Shown here one piece after another: positions 7,724-19,915 of a stretch of DNA of 22,727 nt. Position numbers and translations under genes: made by a program. The DNA lies in IMG/VR virus record IMGVR_UViG_3300047564_006443, positions 1 to 22,727 of that record. The stretch is one strand, 5' to 3'. Origin of the DNA: a virus. Each line of letters starts with the position of its first letter. Position 1 is the stretch's first letter. Below the pieces are notes generated by a model, which worked only from the letters and a program-made list of their open reading frames with translations, was not told where the DNA came from and ran no database searches.

Positions 7724-7953
7724 ATGACTGTATCCATTGCCCCAAGTCGGCAAGATAATAGCTGGGAACAATTCTGTAACTGGGTAACTTCAACTAACAA
7801 TCGTCTGTATGTTGGTTGGTTCGGAGTCCTTATGATTCCTTGCCTTCTCGCTGCGACTACTTGCTTCATTATCGCATTCATCGGTGCTCCCCCAGTGGAC
7901 ATTGATGGTATTCGTGAACCAGTTGCTGGTTCTCTTATGTACGGCAACAACAT
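7724..7953 (+). CDS. psbA: psbA exon 1
   Basis: Encodes residues 1-76 and the first two bases of codon 77. The last recognisable words are MYGNN-I; the uninterrupted D1 family reads NNIISG across this point. Confidence 0.9.
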
Positions 7954-10900
7954 CTAGATGGTGTCACTTACAAGTAATTGTAAGAAGTAAATTGGGTGAA
8001 TTGCTGGAAAGGGAAGACCACCCCAATCAGCAGCCAAGTCCAGAGTACACTCTGGAAAGGTTCAACGACTACCTGAGGAGTTTAGTCTCCTTAATAACAG
8101 GATTAAGCGCCCAACTCCTTTTATGTTATAATTAGTGTAAAAGGATGAAGATATAGTCTAACTTCCATGATAACTTACTTAGCAATAAGACTTTCTAATG
8201 GTGATTATTATTGGGGTTCTACCGCAATGACTCTCAAAAAGAGAGAACGATTTCATAGAAAGTTTAAGGGAAACGATCACTTCCATAATTCTCTAAAAAA
8301 ATATCCAGATGATTGGATATTTCTGGAAATCTTCAATGAAGAAACAGATAGTAGAGAAACTGAAAAGAAAATGCTTTCTTTACATTACAATAGAAGTGGA
8401 TGCCTTAACTTATCAAATGAACCTCAGGGTTGGGGAACTGGTGAAAATCATGCCAGAAATAAAAATCCTCAATATTGGGAACATCTAAAAGGTGAAGGAC
8501 ATCCAAGAAAAGTTAATCCAGAAAAATGGAATAATTCTATTGGAGATAATCATTGGACTAGAAATGTTGATAAGAGTAAATTGGTTTCTCTTGGATACAA
8601 TTTTCCCAAAATGTCTGGTGATAAAAATCATATGAAAAATCCTGATGTTGCTAAGAAGATTTCTAAGTGGAGACAAGGAAAAAATATTGAACCTTGGTTA
8701 GAGGCAGATATCATATATCAAATATGGTTATCTTGTAGAAAACCTAGTCCATCTGCAAAAGCATGGGCAAAGAAAACAAACTTTCCTTATTATTCACTTA
8801 GGTCTATGGTCTCTTCATTTTTAGAAGGTTGGATACCTTATGAGGATGAAGAATGGATTTCGTGGAAGGCATCAGTGGTGCCGTTGTTCCTTCTTCTAAT
8901 GCTATCGGACTTCACTTCTATCCTATCTGGGAAGCAGCAAGTCTTGATGAATGGCTCTACAATGGTGGACCTTTCCAACTTGTTGTATTTCACTTCCTCA
9001 TTGGCATCTATGCTTATATGGGTCGTGAATGGGAACTCTCATACCGTCAACCCTAGGCGGCTCTTGAAGGAAACTTCAAGATAAACATCGGGTGAATTGC
9101 TGGAAACTATGGACATTTACGACGAATTTATATCATACCTTCAAACAATTGAACCTAGTGACGGTGAATATTACGAAAAACATCGTATTATTCCTGGACA
9201 TGAAGGAGGATTATATGAAGATGGAAATGTAGTTAAATGCACATTTGAAAATCACAAATTTGCTCATTACTATAGGTGGTTAGCAAAATCTTCTGAGAAA
9301 GATAAATATTCTTGGAGAAAGATGTGTGGTTGGAAAGATGTAGATGCCCGTCGTGAAATGGCTTCTTATGCTGGGAAACTTGGTGGTCGTAAGACCAATC
9401 AAATCCATAAAGAACGTGGAACTAATTTTTATAGTTCGGAGTTTGGTAGAAATGCTTCACTCAAACGCTCAAAAAAAGATAAACAAAACTGGATGAATGA
9501 GTTAAACCAACAACTTACATTTGAACAAAGGTCAAATGCAGGTAAAGTTGGCGCTCAAAAAACTCTTCAATTTCAAAGAGAAACTAATACAGGTTTCTTT
9601 AACCCTAAAGCAACTTTACAAAAACTTGCTAATCTTAAACGGTGGGGTATAAAAATTGATGGAGTGAGAATTCCATTTAAAAGTTTATCTTCAGATTTCG
9701 TTGAATATCATATCAACGAAGGAACCAATAAGGAGTATTCTAATTCATAAAATCAGCAGCCAAGCTAACCACGAACTTGGTTAGAAGGTTCAGAGACTAG
9801 TCGGTTTTCCAAGCGTGGAATATAATACGACATTAGCTCCCGACACCTAAACTCTTATGAGTAAGGTGAAGATATAGTCCACCACCACTTTTAGTGGTGC
9901 TAGGTATACGTCCTTGGATTTGTGTTGCTTACAGCGCACCTGTTGCTGCTGCGAGTGCCGTGTTCCTTGTGTATCCCTTCGGTCAAGGTAGTTTTAGTGA
10001 TGCTATGCCTCTGGGTATCAGCGGAACCTTCAACTACATGTTGGTGTTCCAGGCTGAGCACAATATCCTTATGCACCCATTCCATATGCTTGGAGTTGCT
10101 GGTGTATTTGGTGGGGCATTTGCTGGAGCAATGCATAGGGAACTGTGCCCTTGCTGAGTAATCAGTAAGTGAAAATCGGGTGAACTGCTGGAACCCTAAG
10201 TTACTAAAATGTTACTTGACTTATGTAAATAACTCTGGTAACATAAACTGTATGGCTAACAAGTACTTATCTTTTATTGAGGAATGTAAAAATAAAACAT
10301 ATCCTCCCAATACTTATCTTGAAGACCACCATATTGTCCCAAAACATGATGGTGGTCTTGATAATCCAGAAAACCTTACTTCATTATCTTTTGACGACCA
10401 CATACTCGCACATAAAATAAGGTACGATGTATACGGTCAAGTTTATGACTTAGCAGCATATAACTTGATGTGTGGTTTTGATAGTGAAGGTTGGAGACTT
10501 CTTAGAGTTGAAGGTGCTTATAAAACACACGAAGCATTAAGATTATCCAAGAAAAATTTTTGGAGTTCTGATTATCAAAAAGAAATGTCTGCTCGTTCTG
10601 TAAAGTCTGAGTATGCTATGAAAATGAGAAGTATTGGTGGCAAAGTAGGAGGTAAAAATAGAAACAAAAATGTTGCTATTACTTCTACTGATAAGTATAT
10701 TTTCTCTTATGACAAAGTTGAAACGGTTTGTATAATCAACTGCGAAACTGGTGGAGAAGTTTTAGAAGAACTACAAAAAATAGTTCCCAATCAAAACTTC
10801 AAAAGAGTAACTCCTCTACTAAAAGGTCAAAGAAAAAATGCTTACAGTTGGTCTTGTAAAAAACTTTAGTAATATGGCAATCAGCATCCAAGTCCTAGAT

Positions 10901-11463
10901 ACATCTAGGAAAGGTTCAGAGACTACCTGAGGGGTTCAGTCCCCTTAATAACAGGTTTAAGTGCCCGACAACCTAATAAAATAGGTTGATGATATAGTCC
11001 ACTCCTTATGAAAATAAGGTATAATAGGGGTTCCCTCGTAACCTCCTCCCTGGTGCGTGAAACCACCGAGAGCGAGTCCCAGAACTACGGCTATAAGTTC
11101 GGTCAAGAGGAAGAGACTTATAACATTGTCGCTGCTCATGGGTATTTTGGTCGTCTTATTTTCCAATATGCGTCCTTTAATAACTCCCGTTCACTACACT
11201 TCTTCCTTGCCGCTTGGCCAGTGATTGGTATTTGGTTCACTGCTCTTGGTGTTAGCACCATGGCCTTCAACCTCAACGGTTTCAACTTCAACCAGTCACT
11301 GATTGATAGCCAGAACCGTGTCATCCCTACTTGGGCTGATATCCTCAACCGTGCTGGTCTGGGCATGGAGGTGATGCATGAGCGTAACGCTCACAACTTC
11401 CCTCTCGACCTTGCCAGCGTAGAAGCAACTCCTGTTGCTCTTACTGCTCCAACAATTGGTTGA
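7724..11463 (+). CDS. psbA: Photosystem II D1 protein, psbA, four exons split by three group I introns
   Basis: Joining 7724-7953, 8870-9047, 9900-10136 and 11029-11463 gives one intact reading frame of 359 residues, the usual D1 length. D1 is the photosystem II reaction-centre subunit that binds P680, pheophytin, QB and the manganese cluster in the thylakoid membrane. Key residues are present: Tyr161 (AYSAPVAA), Asp170 (SFSDAMPLG), His190 ([10 protein letters not shown]), His215, His332-Glu333 (VMHERN), His337, Asp342 and the C-terminal processing site after Ala344. Introns sit in codon 77 (phase 2), after Arg136 and directly after the His215 codon (a ligand of the non-haem iron). Each 5' exon ends in T and each intron ends in G, as group I splicing requires. 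Without splicing, D1 would stop in the first codon of intron 1. The gene ends in a strong terminator. Phage D1 replaces the fast-turning host D1 during infection. Confidence 0.93.
7954..8869 (+). ncRNA. Group I intron 1 of psbA
   Basis: This is a self-splicing group I intron, 916 bases. The conserved core elements appear in order: P (GGGTGAATTGCTGGAA, about 7994-8009), Q (AATCAGCAGCCAAG, 8024-8037), R (GGTTCAACGACTA, about 8059-8071) and S (GAAGATATAGTC, about 8147-8158). Between R and S lies CCTGAGGAGTTTAGTCTCC, forming the extra P7.1/P7.2-type stem of group IA introns. The preceding exon base is T and the last intron base is G. The endonuclease gene is downstream of S, in the P9 region. Confidence 0.9.
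8167..9084 (+). CDS. GIY-YIG homing endonuclease with NUMOD3-like repeats, in psbA intron 1
   Basis: The frame is 305 codons from ATG 8167. The GIY-YIG domain is near the N-terminus: ITYLAIRL (2-9) and YYWGST (14-19) as the two motif strands, Arg28 in the RERFHRK helix, a Glu in SRETEKKM (about 62-69) and Asn81 in CLNLSNE. It is followed by about four NUMOD3-type units ([35 protein letters not shown]), a DNA-binding module usual in intron endonucleases. Such enzymes cut intronless psbA to spread the intron. Only about 235 residues lie in the intron; the frame then runs through exon 2 in another frame and stops 37 bases into intron 2, so the full protein can come only from unspliced RNA. There is no clear ribosome binding site. 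The composition is AT-rich, unlike the exons. Confidence 0.85.
8870..9047 (+). CDS. psbA: psbA exon 2
   Basis: Completes codon 77 and encodes residues 78-136 ([13 protein letters not shown] to REWELSYR). It is overprinted in another frame by the C-terminus of the GIY-YIG gene. Confidence 0.9.
9048..9899 (+). ncRNA. Group I intron 2 of psbA
   Basis: The intron is 852 bases. Core elements are P (GGGTGAATTGCTGGAA, about 9090-9105), Q (AATCAGCAGCCAAG, about 9751-9764), R (GGTTCAGAGACTA, about 9787-9799) and S (GAAGATATAGTCC, about 9868-9880). The whole endonuclease gene sits between P and Q, in the P5 loop, unlike intron 1. The 5' exon ends CGT and the intron ends in G before CTA. Confidence 0.9.
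9109..9750 (+). CDS. HNH homing endonuclease in psbA intron 2
   Basis: The protein is 213 residues from ATG 9109; an in-frame TTG at 9097 lies inside the P element of the intron core and is less likely as a start. The HNH motif is near the N-terminus: [12 protein letters not shown] (about 23-34), Asn40, then [11 protein letters not shown] (about 47-57). Two similar basic units, [10 protein letters not shown] and [10 protein letters not shown], follow and are probably DNA-binding. It would cut intron-less psbA at or near the intron 2 site and so drive homing. It is a paralogue of the intron 3 enzyme by its shared HNH spacing, but not of the GIY-YIG enzyme. It is read in the same direction as psbA, from unspliced or excised intron RNA. 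Confidence 0.88.
   Translation: MDIYDEFISYLQTIEPSDGEYYEKHRIIPGHEGGLYEDGNVVKCTFENHKFAHYYRWLAKSSEKDKYSWRKMCGWKDVDARREMASYAGKLGGRKTNQIHKERGTNFYSSEFGRNASLKRSKKDKQNWMNELNQQLTFEQRSNAGKVGAQKTLQFQRETNTGFFNPKATLQKLANLKRWGIKIDGVRIPFKSLSSDFVEYHINEGTNKEYSNS
9900..10136 (+). CDS. psbA: psbA exon 3
   Basis: Encodes residues 137-215 ([14 protein letters not shown] to GAMH), including Tyr161, Asp170, His190, His198 and His215. It is the most function-dense part of D1. Confidence 0.9.
10137..11028 (+). ncRNA. Group I intron 3 of psbA
   Basis: The intron is 892 bases. Core elements are P (GGGTGAACTGCTGGAA, about 10178-10193), Q (AATCAGCATCCAAG, about 10879-10892), R (GGTTCAGAGACTA, about 10913-10925) and S (GATGATATAGTCC, about 10988-11000). 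The segment after R is almost the same as in intron 1 (CCTTAATAACAGG then TTAAG), pointing to a common recent origin. The endonuclease gene sits between P and Q. The intron ends in G before the GGT of exon 4. Confidence 0.9.
10252..10869 (+). CDS. HNH homing endonuclease in psbA intron 3
   Basis: The protein is 205 residues from ATG 10252. An in-frame GTG at 10180 would start inside the P element of the intron and is rejected. The HNH motif is [12 protein letters not shown] (about 24-35), Asn41, then DDHILAH (about 48-54). A basic middle ([14 protein letters not shown]) and a C-terminal segment that ends [13 protein letters not shown] follow; the latter resembles the NUMOD1-type helix-turn-helix found at the end of T4-type HNH intron enzymes. 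Its layout matches the intron 2 enzyme. It would cleave intronless psbA close to the His215 codon. No clear Shine-Dalgarno sequence is seen. Confidence 0.87.
   Translation: MANKYLSFIEECKNKTYPPNTYLEDHHIVPKHDGGLDNPENLTSLSFDDHILAHKIRYDVYGQVYDLAAYNLMCGFDSEGWRLLRVEGAYKTHEALRLSKKNFWSSDYQKEMSARSVKSEYAMKMRSIGGKVGGKNRNKNVAITSTDKYIFSYDKVETVCIINCETGGEVLEELQKIVPNQNFKRVTPLLKGQRKNAYSWSCKKL
11029..11463 (+). CDS. psbA: psbA exon 4
   Basis: Encodes residues 216-359 ([14 protein letters not shown] to the C-terminus), including the ligands His332, Glu333, His337 and Asp342 and the C-terminal processing site. Confidence 0.9.
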
Positions 11464-11584: not shown

Positions 11585-12952
11585 ATGAGAAACAGAAGAC
11601 GTTATAGAAGGCACTGCGAGAATTACAAAAAAACAGAAGAACTGGTGTATCTTCCGCAGGTTCTTGTGGACTATAATGTTGCGGCAATTCCAACCCGAGA
11701 CACCATACCCTACGGAACTCAGGCAGTCTGGAATGGGCAGAATCTTTCAAGTCTTGGGAATATTGCGTCAAGTGCTTATGCCTTTGTAATTGATTCTGGA
11801 GTATTGGATATCACTGGAGACTTGAATTTAAATACTCAATGGTCTAGAAGTTGGATTCTGGGTCAATCTCCATTTGTTGATGGTAATGGTCACGGGACTC
11901 ACGTTGCCGGAACGATTGGAGCACTTGCAAATAACAGTGGGATTGTTGGAGTTGCTCCAGGAGCACAAATAGTCTCACTAAAGGTTTTCAATAACAGTGG
12001 TTCGGCAACTCTCTCTTCGATTATAGACGCAGTTAATTATGCAGCAGATATAATCATCACCAACCGACTCGATTTGTCAAAGGTTGTGATTAATATGAGT
12101 CTTGGTGGAGTTCTTAATTCTGCCTTGAATGCCGCAATTCTTCGCGCAGCAAACTTAGGAATTCGGTTTACGATTGCAGCAGGAAATTCCGGCATCGATG
12201 CTGACACGACTTCTCCTGCAAGTGTAGGCACTCACCCAAACGTCTACACGGTCTCTGCAGTAGATTCAATGGGGGCTATGCCAGCGTGGTCGAACTGGGA
12301 CACTGTAACGCCCACAGACCCCTTAGACACAGTGGATTATGCGGCACCGGGAGTCGGTATAATGTCCTACTATAAGGCTGGATTACTTGCCTATCTCAGC
12401 GGGACTTCAATGGCAGCGCCTCATGTTGCGGGATTGCTTTTGATGGGGGAAGTAACTTCAACGGGAATGGCAACTCCATTCTATGCTGGAACTGCAGACC
12501 CTTTTGCGATTCTGAGTAATCTACCCACAGTTGCAAATCAAACTCTCTGGGGGACTGAGGCAAACGATACCATCATTGGTGGGCCGGGTAATGATACAAT
12601 TGCCGGTGTCTCTCTTACAGGTTCAATTTCAGGGCAAATTGATATTCTTATTGGAAGCACTGGAGCAGATACTTTTATTCTTGCAGATTCTCGTGGAGCA
12701 TTCTACAACGATGGAGTGGACGGAACTCTAGGGACAAGTGATTATGCCCTAATTCAAAACTTTCAATCTGGAGTAGATAAACTACAACTACTGGCAGGTA
12801 ATTACTTTACCACTAGAGTCGGAGATAATTTGAATATCTACTGGGACCAAAATGCAAATGGGAGATTTGAGACAATTCTCTCAAGTAGCGATGAGTTAGT
12901 AGCAGTTATTCAAACCCCGACTTTTTCTTTCCATGACGTTATCTTCTATTAA
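11585..12952 (+). CDS. Subtilisin-like serine protease (S8) with RTX-like calcium-binding tail
   Basis: The protein is 455 residues. The full subtilase catalytic set is present: Asp70 in AFVIDSGV, His103 in DGNGHGTHVAG, oxyanion Asn201 in AAGNSG and Ser275 in LSGTSMAAPHVAG. After the catalytic domain come glycine/aspartate repeats (ANDTIIGGPGNDTIAG, about 326-341, and GSTGADTFILADS) typical of hemolysin-type RTX calcium-binding segments, then YALIQNFQSGVDKLQL, the conserved strand that follows such repeats. No signal peptide is seen; the N-terminus is instead very basic (RNRRRYRRH). RTX proteins usually leave the cell through a type I exporter using a C-terminal signal, so export or a virion or lysis role are both open. 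It is a lone transcription unit between the psbA terminator and the small-gene run. It is unusual cargo for a phage and looks bacterial in origin (inference). Confidence 0.9.
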   Translation: MRNRRRYRRHCENYKKTEELVYLPQVLVDYNVAAIPTRDTIPYGTQAVWNGQNLSSLGNIASSAYAFVIDSGVLDITGDLNLNTQWSRSWILGQSPFVDGNGHGTHVAGTIGALANNSGIVGVAPGAQIVSLKVFNNSGSATLSSIIDAVNYAADIIITNRLDLSKVVINMSLGGVLNSALNAAILRAANLGIRFTIAAGNSGIDADTTSPASVGTHPNVYTVSAVDSMGAMPAWSNWDTVTPTDPLDTVDYAAPGVGIMSYYKAGLLAYLSGTSMAAPHVAGLLLMGEVTSTGMATPFYAGTADPFAILSNLPTVANQTLWGTEANDTIIGGPGNDTIAGVSLTGSISGQIDILIGSTGADTFILADSRGAFYNDGVDGTLGTSDYALIQNFQSGVDKLQLLAGNYFTTRVGDNLNIYWDQNANGRFETILSSSDELVAVIQTPTFSFHDVIFY

Positions 12953-17421: not shown

Positions 17422-18276
17422 ATGACTGTGGGTTGGTGGCCGGATGGCTGGAGAAACGCTTCTTACTCTGATGAGATGGTACCGGAGGCTATAAGAAAAA
17501 TAGCCACTGCAGGACAGATCTATAAGAACCCTCAAACTGGCCATACACTTCAAAAACAGGCTACTGGTCGTTGGAAGCTAGTGGGTGGGGATGATAGAGT
17601 GGAGGAATCAAAGCAAAACCAAACCACCTCTAATATGCCAGACGTCTCCAAAATGAAGAAACTGGCGGAGGGTAATTATGGTGTTGTCTACCAAGATCCG
17701 GAGTCTGGCCATGTAGTAAAAACCCTTAAAGAAGGTAAGGAATGGGGTCCGCATGAAGTGGAATTGGGTAAGAAGATGGCTGAGTTAGGCCATTCACCAA
17801 AAATCTATTCATCTTCACCTTCTCATATTGAAATGGATTTTTCCAAGGGTAAGCCACTTTGGTCTGGTGGATTTAACCGCACAGACGAGGAAAAAGAGCG
17901 CGACCTAAAAATGACAACTGAACAAGCTCAAAAAGCCTTAGCAGCAATCCGTGACCTACATAAAATGGGGTTCTATCACGGTGATATGCATAATGAGCAG
18001 TTCTTAACCGACGGCGAGGGTGGCAAGGACGCCACACTTATCGACTATGGGCTTTCTGGTAAGATTCAAGATCAGCCCCATAAAGCCATAGTTGATTTTA
18101 ATAAGGTGGGGAAACTTATTGATATTTATCGCCCAGAGTTGGATGGGGATCCATATGTACAATTGGTAAGGGAATCCGTTGAGGCTTATAAAGCAGCTAA
18201 AGGACAATCTAAAGCTGCTATAGCTAAACGTTCAGAGATAGGATCAGAGTATTTAAAAAAACTACAAAAGTTATGA
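17422..18276 (+). CDS. Protein kinase-like protein
   Basis: The protein is 284 residues. A kinase fold is visible: glycine loop LAEGNYGVVYQ (81-91), ATP-binding Lys100 in VVKTL, a candidate Glu at 112 or 114 in HEVELGKK, catalytic loop HGDMHNEQF (186-194) with Asp188 and Asn191, and the metal site DYG (208-210) in place of DFG. HGD-x-H-x-x-Q/N is typical of small RIO/ABC1/antibiotic-type atypical kinases. The first 60 residues are a separate region (WWPDGWRNASYSDEM and later HTLQKQATGRWKLVGG). The target is unknown; phages use such kinases to phosphorylate host proteins, but that is inference here. The stop overlaps the ATG of the NlpC/P60-like gene (ATGA), so both are made together. Confidence 0.75.
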   Translation: MTVGWWPDGWRNASYSDEMVPEAIRKIATAGQIYKNPQTGHTLQKQATGRWKLVGGDDRVEESKQNQTTSNMPDVSKMKKLAEGNYGVVYQDPESGHVVKTLKEGKEWGPHEVELGKKMAELGHSPKIYSSSPSHIEMDFSKGKPLWSGGFNRTDEEKERDLKMTTEQAQKALAAIRDLHKMGFYHGDMHNEQFLTDGEGGKDATLIDYGLSGKIQDQPHKAIVDFNKVGKLIDIYRPELDGDPYVQLVRESVEAYKAAKGQSKAAIAKRSEIGSEYLKKLQKL

Positions 18277-18758
18277 TTGTAAACGACGAAACAACAAAAA
18301 AAGAATATACAACCCCTGACTTCTTTCAGGAATATATCTCTAACAAAAACAAGTTTTTGAAATTTAATTTCAGACGCAATAACTGCTCTAACGTAGTTAA
18401 GGAGTTTTTGGGAGCGCTGGGTTTGAAAACCCCAACCCTGACTCCATGGGCAGATACTATCAGAACCCTGGGAAGTGTAAATAGGAACCCTGAGGATCTT
18501 CGCCCTGGAGACGTTGTTGCTATGGGTACGCCTGGAGACACCCATCACGTAGGGATTTATTTAGGTGGATCGTCAGTACTCCACCAATCAGGGATTAGGG
18601 GATACGTGGTTGGGGCGCATAACGACCTTGCGGCATTTACGAATCACAGAGCAGGATTCTACTTTGTCAGACCGGACTATTCTCCAATTTCTCCGAAATC
18701 TGTTGAAGATTTAATTGCAACTCCTCAGCCACTTTTTGCACCGGCCATTGGCGGTTGA
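18273..18758 (+). CDS. NlpC/P60-like cysteine peptidase or amidase
   Basis: The protein is 161 residues. RRNNCSNVVKEFLGALGL (34-51 in part) gives the nucleophile Cys38 at the start of a helix, then RPGDVVAMGTPGDTHHVGIY (77-96) with the conserved P-G-D and the active-site His91 or His92, and SSVLHQSG (100-107) for the last strand. This is the NlpC/P60 layout. Members cut peptidoglycan peptides or act as amidases. There is no signal peptide or membrane segment, so entry to the wall would need a holin, or the protein may be a virion component. It overlaps the kinase gene by four bases; the pairing may be functional, or the kinase may act on another target. Confidence 0.75.
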   Translation: MIVNDETTKKEYTTPDFFQEYISNKNKFLKFNFRRNNCSNVVKEFLGALGLKTPTLTPWADTIRTLGSVNRNPEDLRPGDVVAMGTPGDTHHVGIYLGGSSVLHQSGIRGYVVGAHNDLAAFTNHRAGFYFVRPDYSPISPKSVEDLIATPQPLFAPAIGG

Positions 18759-18783
18759 TTGTAGTTGGTAAATGTGGTATAAT
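18755..18783 (+). promoter_or_regulatory. sigma70-type promoter of the tRNA-Gly and porin region
   Basis: TTGATT (18755-18760), 17 bases, TATAAT (18778-18783), with TGG directly before the -10. Downstream, ACCCCTC (18795-18801) and GAGGGGT (18830-18836) can pair as a leader hairpin before the tRNA. Confidence 0.7.
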
Positions 18784-18840
18784 AATCACATAACACCCCT
18801 CAAGCATAACCACGTCGGTAGCTCAAACAGAGGGGTCACT

Positions 18841-18913
18841 GCGGAATTAACTCAGTTGGTAGAGTACCTTCCTTCCAAGTAGGATGTCAGGGGTTCGAGT
18901 CCCCTATTCCGCT
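18841..18913 (+). tRNA. tRNA-Gly(UCC)
   Basis: Acceptor GCGGAAT with ATTCCGC, D stem ACTC/GAGT, anticodon loop CTTCCAA (TCC), T arm AGGGG-TTCGAGT-CCCCT. A T-T mismatch is present in the anticodon stem. No CCA is encoded. It lies apart from the main array. Confidence 0.9.
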
Positions 18914-18987: not shown

Positions 18988-19854
18988 ATGAAAAAGCTCA
19001 TCTCTGCAATTGGCGCTATTGGCGCAACTGGCCTAATTGCTCCAATGGTCGCGATGGCCGGGCCTCAGGGTCAGTTTTCGGACGTTCAGCCTACCAACTG
19101 GGCCTATCAGGCCATTATGAATCTGCGCAATCGTTATGGTTGCGCCGTGGGTTTCCCTGATGGTACCTTCCGTGCTGGTGCCCCGGCAACCCGTGCTGAA
19201 CTTGCCGCTCTGACCAACGCCTGTCTGGATGAAATCACCACGTACGCCGATGCTAGAGACGCGGCTATGGCCTCCGCTCTGCGTGCCGAAGTGGGCGCTG
19301 TTAGCAACCGCGTTACCAAACTCGAAGTAGTTGCCGCTGAGAAAGCCCAAGGCGTGGGTAACTATCTCGGTGCTGGTGTCATGCTGAATAAGCAAGGTGT
19401 TGAGGGTGGTGGGTATAGTGAAGATCGCGTTATTGCCGGGGGCACTGTTCAGGCCCGCTATGCAATTAACACGTTCTCCAACGAGAATGCCATCTCCATC
19501 CGTCCCTACGCCAACTTCGTTGCCGGTCCTAACTCGCAATTCGGAGCTGGTGGCGGTGCTCTTCTCTCCTATGACTTCTCAGTTGCCAAGCGGGAAGGTG
19601 TGAGTGCCGTTAACATTTACGCCGGGGCGGGTTACCAAGTCCCCTTTGTGAATGACACGCAAGCCAACTTCCAATCCGCCGTTGGTGAGAAGGGTCAAGT
19701 GGTGTTTGCCCTGGGCATCGAAGGTCGTCTGACCAACTCGCTTGTTGGTTTTGCCGATCTGAAATTCCCCACCACCAACGCTGGTGATAGTTACGGCGCC
19801 AGCGACGCCTCCTATTCCCCCGTGCTTACCACCGGTCTGGGATTCAAGTTCTGA
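18988..19854 (+). CDS. SLH-domain outer-membrane porin-like protein (host-derived type)
   Basis: The protein is 288 residues. A signal peptide (MKKLISAIGAIGATGLIAPM, cleavage likely after Ala24 in AMA-GP) is followed by one SLH domain (about 29-80: FSDVQPTNWAYQAIMNL, GFPDGTFRAGAPATRAELAA). A coiled-coil stretch follows (SNRVTKLEVVAAE), then beta-barrel-like alternating strands and a C-terminal GLGFKF, with a terminal Phe as in the BAM insertion signal. This is the plan of the cyanobacterial SLH-OprB outer-membrane proteins, but those are about 500 residues or more, so the barrel here is short (inference). Codon use is richer in G and C than in its neighbours, consistent with gain from a host. 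It could coat the infected cell's surface or block reinfection. It is followed by a terminator. Confidence 0.85.
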   Translation: MKKLISAIGAIGATGLIAPMVAMAGPQGQFSDVQPTNWAYQAIMNLRNRYGCAVGFPDGTFRAGAPATRAELAALTNACLDEITTYADARDAAMASALRAEVGAVSNRVTKLEVVAAEKAQGVGNYLGAGVMLNKQGVEGGGYSEDRVIAGGTVQARYAINTFSNENAISIRPYANFVAGPNSQFGAGGGALLSYDFSVAKREGVSAVNIYAGAGYQVPFVNDTQANFQSAVGEKGQVVFALGIEGRLTNSLVGFADLKFPTTNAGDSYGASDASYSPVLTTGLGFKF

Positions 19855-19881
19855 TCAGGGCCTCCTGACAAACTGACCATG

Positions 19882-19904
19882 GGGGTCCCAAAGACCCCTA
19901 TTTT
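19882..19904 (+). terminator. Probable terminator of the porin gene
   Basis: The stem GGGGTC-CCAAA-GACCCC is followed by TATTTTC, with a flanking CATG on both sides. The T run is imperfect. Confidence 0.65.
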
Positions 19905-19906
19905 CA

Positions 19907-19915
19907 TGGTAAAAT
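19907..19915 (+). promoter_or_regulatory. Extended -10 promoter of hli
   Basis: TG-G-TAAAAT directly behind the porin terminator, with a leader of about 24 bases to ATG 19946. No -35 is visible. Confidence 0.5.

Follow-up and report, generated by a model that had tools for sequence, protein, structure and literature searches.

A porin-type SLH wall anchor joined to a predicted OmpA-like barrel in a cyanophage protein family

Introduction

The locus at positions 18,988 to 19,854 raises the question of whether the SLH protein it encodes is a shortened host porin, as a preliminary description of the sequence had it, and of what such a protein might do for a phage. The window, i.e., the whole stretch of DNA that was analysed, is an entire virus record of 22.7 kb (IMGVR_UViG_3300047564_006443). 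Its gene content, namely psbA exons and their two group I introns, genes of the GIY-YIG or HNH-like kind, speD, hli, an alpha-glucosyltransferase match and 16 tRNAs, leads us to take it for part of the genome of a T4-like cyanophage; a putative host was assigned from the relatives of the phage. The psbA gene (7944-11020) is interrupted by two group I introns (7944-8179 and 10808-11020), GIY-YIG and HNH-like ORFs being placed between its exons, and is immediately followed by a gene for a subtilisin-like S8 protease with an RTX calcium-binding repeat (11585-12952).

Results

The gene under study (18988-19854, + strand) is an intact ORF with an ATG start, identified also through its domain matches and its relatives, and encodes a protein of 288 aa ending in ...GLGFKF. 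The protein comprises a hydrophobic signal peptide (aa 1-24, 18988-19059) with a putative cleavage site between AMA and GPQ; an SLH domain (aa 29-83, 19072-19236), supported by Pfam, porin comparison and alignment, with W38, TRAE at 68-71, Cys52 and Cys79; a helical stalk (aa 84-120, 19237-19347), which in the structure model and the profile alignment corresponds to the porin coiled coil; and a predicted eight-stranded beta-barrel (aa 120-288, 19345-19851) with a C-terminal Phe, assigned from structure models and from its link to standalone small outer-membrane proteins (OMPs). All these features lie on the + strand. The signal peptide, the SLH domain and the terminal Phe, which had been described as intact, were thus all confirmed on this ORF. 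Downstream, the sequence contains a terminator-like hairpin (GGGGGTC-CCAAA-GACCCC followed by TATTTT; 19880-19906, + strand); the fold of 19862-19915 is weak (z -1.8), and the hairpin is absent from the hits of a promoter/terminator-type scan of the region.

The N-terminal half resembles host porins. Pfam returned an SLH match (PF00395) at aa 30-73 with an E-value of 3.1e-7, above the cut-off, and the N-termini of picocyanobacterial Som/iron-uptake porins share 40-54% identity with aa 29-118, i.e., the SLH domain and the stalk. The best host matches are confined to aa 1-118, the alignment extending as far as the porin coiled coil and stopping short of the barrel. W38 and R69 are invariant across 24 aligned phages, and the equivalent Trp and TRxE Arg are ligand-binding residues in SLH structures (PMC10628300); in its sequence, the domain has both the ligand-binding Trp and the TRxE motif that mark a tether of the OmpM type. 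The stalk helix itself (aa 89-120), which in a tether of this type would form a trimer, comes from structure prediction. The curated score of NF033921 (por_somb) is not reached, the match giving 67.9 bits against a cut-off of 100 and covering only aa 29-92, and a Pfam scan of the 288-aa protein gave no match to OprB at E 0.1.

The C-terminal half is of another kind. From the SLH domain to the end, the phage protein measures 259 aa, and 89 host porins measure 433-882 aa (median 502) over the same stretch; the barrel is therefore about half the host length, as first described, although it is not a porin barrel made shorter but a different barrel. The idea of a shortened or truncated host porin was rejected because the barrel profile lacks porin similarity (a probability of 0.5% against porin barrels in the hhalign profile comparison), because it has eight predicted strands, and because it matches small OMPs; a porin-type barrel (Som, NF033921 or SLH-OprB) was not found in it. 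In 386 genomes across the cyanobacterial phylum, the barrel profile disclosed nine standalone small OMPs, some of which exceed the PF13505 cut-off, and a profile-profile comparison between the phage barrel and six of these standalone proteins gave a probability of 98.9% and an E-value of 3.5e-17, with pairwise identities up to 38%. The phage barrel has no direct match to PF13505 (OMP_b-brl) at E 10, the link being provided by profile comparison.

A mixed profile found the small-barrel family in 76/386 cyanobacteria across the phylum and, at HMMER-level sensitivity, in 0/300 genomes of the picocyanobacterial family. The barrel profile also gave no match in eight picocyanobacterial genomes, and the phage-record positive control was detected; the method was judged sound since the same profile succeeded in the 386-genome sample and in the phage control. 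An SLH domain was absent from every fetched host small-barrel locus, and within the sampled genomes the combination of anchor and barrel was seen only in phages. No host family of equally short length was found. The host origin originally proposed for the protein can thus be retained for the SLH half and not for the barrel, whose family is unseen in the 300 picocyanobacteria.

AlphaFold2 predicts the helix at 89-120 followed by eight strands (126-136, 147-162, 168-179, 185-202, 205-218, 237-247, 252-261 and 279-287) with moderate confidence, 63.7 for the whole protein and a pLDDT of 77.1 for the barrel alone, the SLH part being poorly modelled. The closest PDB structure to the barrel is OmpA (1qjp, TM 0.72), and Ail also matches well; TM values against OmpA, Ail and OmpX range from 0.54 to 0.72 (target length), with 10-18% identity. 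The prediction, of moderate confidence, is thus an OmpA-like eight-stranded outer-membrane barrel with a C-terminal aromatic residue, and models and profile comparisons together indicate a relationship with the standalone small OMPs of large-genome cyanobacteria. Apart from that of S-PM2, the nearest viral model comes from Synechococcus phage S-CBWM1 and is a barrel of 156 aa (rmsd 2.7, 24% identity). For OmpM-like barrels, mostly 16-30 strands have been proposed, and the OmpA-like small barrel of Veillonella was judged unlikely to be a general diffusion channel (PMC10628300). By this analogy and from the model, the phage barrel is unlikely to act as a diffusion pore; the suggestion that the protein alters permeability through a pore is weak on this account, and the eight-stranded OmpA-like barrel has no detectable similarity to the Som porin barrel.

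The same data bear on the possibility that the gene encodes a nutrient porin, admitting iron or another solute to feed phage production in the infected cell. Such a role might be read from the por_somb match of the SLH half, from database names ("porin", or "iron uptake porin" for the S-CREM1 relative), and from the full-length porin carried by phage S-SRM01, the SLH half of which groups with host porins. However, the por_somb match is limited to the SLH half and under the cut-off, the barrel shows no similarity to porin barrels, and OmpA-like small barrels are unlikely general diffusion channels (PMC10628300); a nutrient porin is, in our opinion, quite improbable.

In IMG/VR, the scan returned 123 stretches, and 120 of them code for a relative, so that at least 120 related viral loci exist, and 80 of these were kept for comparison. 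The 80 relatives match at 57-73% identity and are all aligned to the last residue, and the length of the family is nearly constant (about 279-294 aa once over-long starts are trimmed). The protein of the window is a full-length member of this family, the S-PM2 p168 type, with which it shares SLH domain, stalk and barrel alike; S-PM2 (p168) and S-CREM1 are the only isolates that harbor the whole protein. PHROGs holds no family for it, and a single-protein exact-peptide scan of genome contigs returned no relative, host matches requiring alignment. The median dN/dS is 0.18 overall, about 0.18 in the SLH domain and stalk, 0.15 in the barrel and 0.55 in the signal peptide, the most variable part of the family, and purifying selection thus acts on both halves. 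Strand 7 is invariant (60 sequences), and conservation is also strong in outer loops 3 and 4, so that two of the four loops nearly equal the strands.

That a gene kept intact must be in use had been argued from the single locus, and the number of related loci, their similar length and the low dN/dS, which place the ORF well outside what chance would produce, uphold the argument: constant length and purifying selection indicate that the protein is used. It is true that the protein is short compared with host porins, as a captured host fragment or a decaying relic without function might be; nevertheless, a functionless relic is already contradicted by the selection data, i.e., the near-constant length in 80 loci, the dN/dS and the invariant strand 7, and has a negligible probability.

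In a tree based on about 107 columns, whose inner forks are unresolved, a branch with full support (100/100) sets the phage SLH halves apart on one side, and in the barrel tree the phage barrels form a single group (100/100) on a long stem. The monophyly of both halves, together with a family-wide excess of GC, points to one old fusion that phages would have retained, rather than to a recent capture. S-SRM01 differs in this respect: its 486-aa porin (L004, 5890-7350) shares only the SLH part with the family, and since this part nests among host porins, it would represent a separate, later capture.

The GC content of the gene is 56% (GC3 0.56), against 33-50% in its neighbours (GC3 0.22-0.52), in agreement with the preliminary description; the topoisomerase, psbA and hli genes of the window, each with a GC3 of 0.52, are slightly under it. 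The property is shared by the family, since the GC content is above that of the flanks in 63/63 distinct relatives, by 7-18 points, with a GC3 of mostly just 0.2-0.4. The protein contains 15.5% Ala and 12.9% Gly, and the high GC is partly due to its Ala/Gly/Val content. Given this composition, the excess in all 63 relatives and their single old lineage, a recent GC-rich import was rejected.

Upstream of the gene, a sigma-70-type promoter (TTGATT-17-TATAAT, with TG before the -10; 18755-18783, + strand) matches the consensus at 10/12 positions, a score that, taken by itself, does not exceed chance. In the relatives, the scan covered the 320 nt preceding the gene, and matches of 11-12/12 occur in 38/58 unique leaders, compared with 37/290 random stretches; strong host-type promoters are therefore enriched upstream of the relatives' genes. 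The S-PM2 member is reported to be among the earliest and most abundant transcripts of its phage (PMC2984593).

The gene directly upstream (18273-18758) encodes an NlpC/P60 protein, which might suggest that the SLH-barrel protein is an aid to lysis or release, accumulating in the outer membrane and helping its disruption or controlling its timing. This NlpC/P60 protein, however, matches minor tail proteins, the neighbours in relatives are tRNA and hli genes, and the S-PM2 member is reported to be transcribed early (PMC2984593); we regard a lysis aid as hardly probable. The NlpC/P60 gene is in turn adjoined by a gene for a kinase-like protein (17422-18276), with weak matches to Pkinase, ABC1 and Kdo, all under the cut-off.

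The tRNA scan placed a tRNA-Gly(UCC) 74 nt before the ATG (18841-18913, + strand), and the same tRNA is found 44-85 nt upstream of the gene in 45/81 loci, the window included (30/58 unique). That it serves the codons of the SLH-barrel gene is unsupported, only 6/37 Gly codons being GGA or GGG. In several phages (L015, L022, L041, L016 and L036), a palindrome lies between the -35 and the -10 upstream of this tRNA, e.g., GACAGAATATTAATTCTGTC and GACAAACTTTAAAGTTTGTC; its letters vary among phages and its symmetry is kept, and an operator or an overlapping terminator is suggested.

Between the promoter and the tRNA, the leader contains a hairpin (18796-18836, + strand) that covers the full abiF RNA model (1-37) with a sub-threshold score of 27.3 bits (gathering 37), and whose fold has -14.7 kcal/mol and a z of about -3.8 to -4.0. 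L014 carries a hairpin like it, in which inspection by eye shows compensating changes in the one stem and the other, and above-threshold abiF RNAs are located in the tRNA clusters of L065 (77-113), L008 (2556-2592) and L042 (1356-1392); an abiF RNA has already been described in S-CREM1 (PMC9964418). It is possible that these hairpins mimic an RNA antitoxin against AbiF-type defence.

In 12 loci (L007, L008, L013, L023, L028, L031, L034, L035, L038, L042, L049 and L076), a wcaG RNA (RF01761) is located 109-211 nt upstream of the gene, and a wcaG signature occurs upstream in 24/80 loci; none was found in the window. The wcaG RNAs have been described as candidates for the regulation of exopolysaccharide genes or high-light genes (PMC2864571), and their recurrence suggests that, in cyanophages, this candidate riboswitch regularly acts on the SLH-barrel gene.

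Discussion

The best reading of an SLH-type outer-membrane protein under purifying selection is a role in the envelope. An early-made, peptidoglycan-tethered outer-membrane protein would remodel or stabilise the envelope of the infected cell; on the strength of sequence, model and analogy, we give this proposal a little less than an even chance. The phage would export an outer-membrane protein produced from a strong host-type promoter, presumably early also in the phage of the window. The SLH domain and stalk, derived from the Som/iron-uptake-porin type, might attach to the polymer that is linked to peptidoglycan in the host wall, and the stalks might oligomerise as in OmpM, given that known SLH proteins bind a pyruvylated polymer of the wall and oligomerise through the stalk (PMC10628300). 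The OmpA-like eight-stranded barrel would sit in the outer membrane without a wide pore, and this non-porin tether could occupy the same wall sites as the host Som porins, or mix with them, the envelope being stabilised or remodelled until lysis. In Synechocystis, the loss of the SLH/OprB protein Slr1908 raises vesiculation (PMC8707739). The conserved outer loops 3 and 4 count against a pure tether, as they suggest a specific outer partner that it would not need.

These loops keep another explanation in play, namely superinfection exclusion or protection against grazing, in which they would cover or change the cell surface, or a receptor would be displaced by tethered copies, and adsorption of other phages would be blocked. 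A 2010 review had already put forward protection from infection or from grazing as the role of the S-PM2 member (PMC2984593), and the wcaG RNA of 12 leaders is elsewhere associated with exopolysaccharide or high-light genes (PMC2864571). Small outer-membrane barrels are encoded by other phages too, and the strong conservation of loops 3 and 4 leaves room for an outer partner; yet a mask directed against many phages might vary in its loops, while two of the four are conserved almost as strands are. Moreover, superinfection exclusion benefits strictly lytic phages less than prophages. We consider exclusion or grazing protection possible, though on the unlikely side.

To return to the envelope tether, a more specific form of it may be envisaged: the wall anchor of the main porin of the host, fused to an unrelated eight-stranded barrel, might act as a decoy that takes its place at the wall beside the SLH porins of the host, or instead of them, and thereby reshapes the outer membrane of the infected cell. 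This is a speculative idea that we hold to be unlikely; if true, it would represent a phage-made dominant competitor of the host outer-membrane tether. In cyanobacteria, the outer membrane is known to be attached to the wall mainly through SLH porins. A conserved, probably early phage protein in which the anchor is kept and the barrel swapped would be a natural probe of this attachment, and of the way in which phages handle the envelope of the cells they infect.

The gene family is already known; its recognition as a chimera of anchor and barrel appears to be new, as far as the literature was searched. S-PM2 p168, a "putative S-layer protein" (CAF34233.1), and the "iron uptake porin" of S-CREM1 (UYA57656.1) are whole-length relatives with 65-68% identity and the same domains, and both annotations miss the chimeric build; the present finding corrects these labels, under which the gene would otherwise be read as an auxiliary gene for iron uptake. 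Like the window, S-PM2 has a tRNA-Gly(UCC) upstream of the gene, and hli likewise lies downstream in S-PM2, whereas the leaders differ, S-PM2 having a wcaG RNA and the window the abiF-like hairpin. Cyanobacterial SLH/OprB porins (Som, Slr1841/Slr1908, NF033921) and OmpM share with the phage protein the SLH domain and the helical stalk, with the conserved Cys pair, but their barrels are porin-sized, whereas the phage barrel has eight predicted strands and belongs to another family. The standalone small OMPs of large-genome cyanobacteria (PF13505 type) have a similar barrel, but measure about 170-200 aa and lack the SLH domain in the loci examined. OmpA, Ail and OmpX have the same eight-stranded fold, and OmpA likewise ties the outer membrane to peptidoglycan; in OmpA, however, the wall domain is C-terminal and OmpA-like, whereas that of the phage protein is an N-terminal SLH domain.
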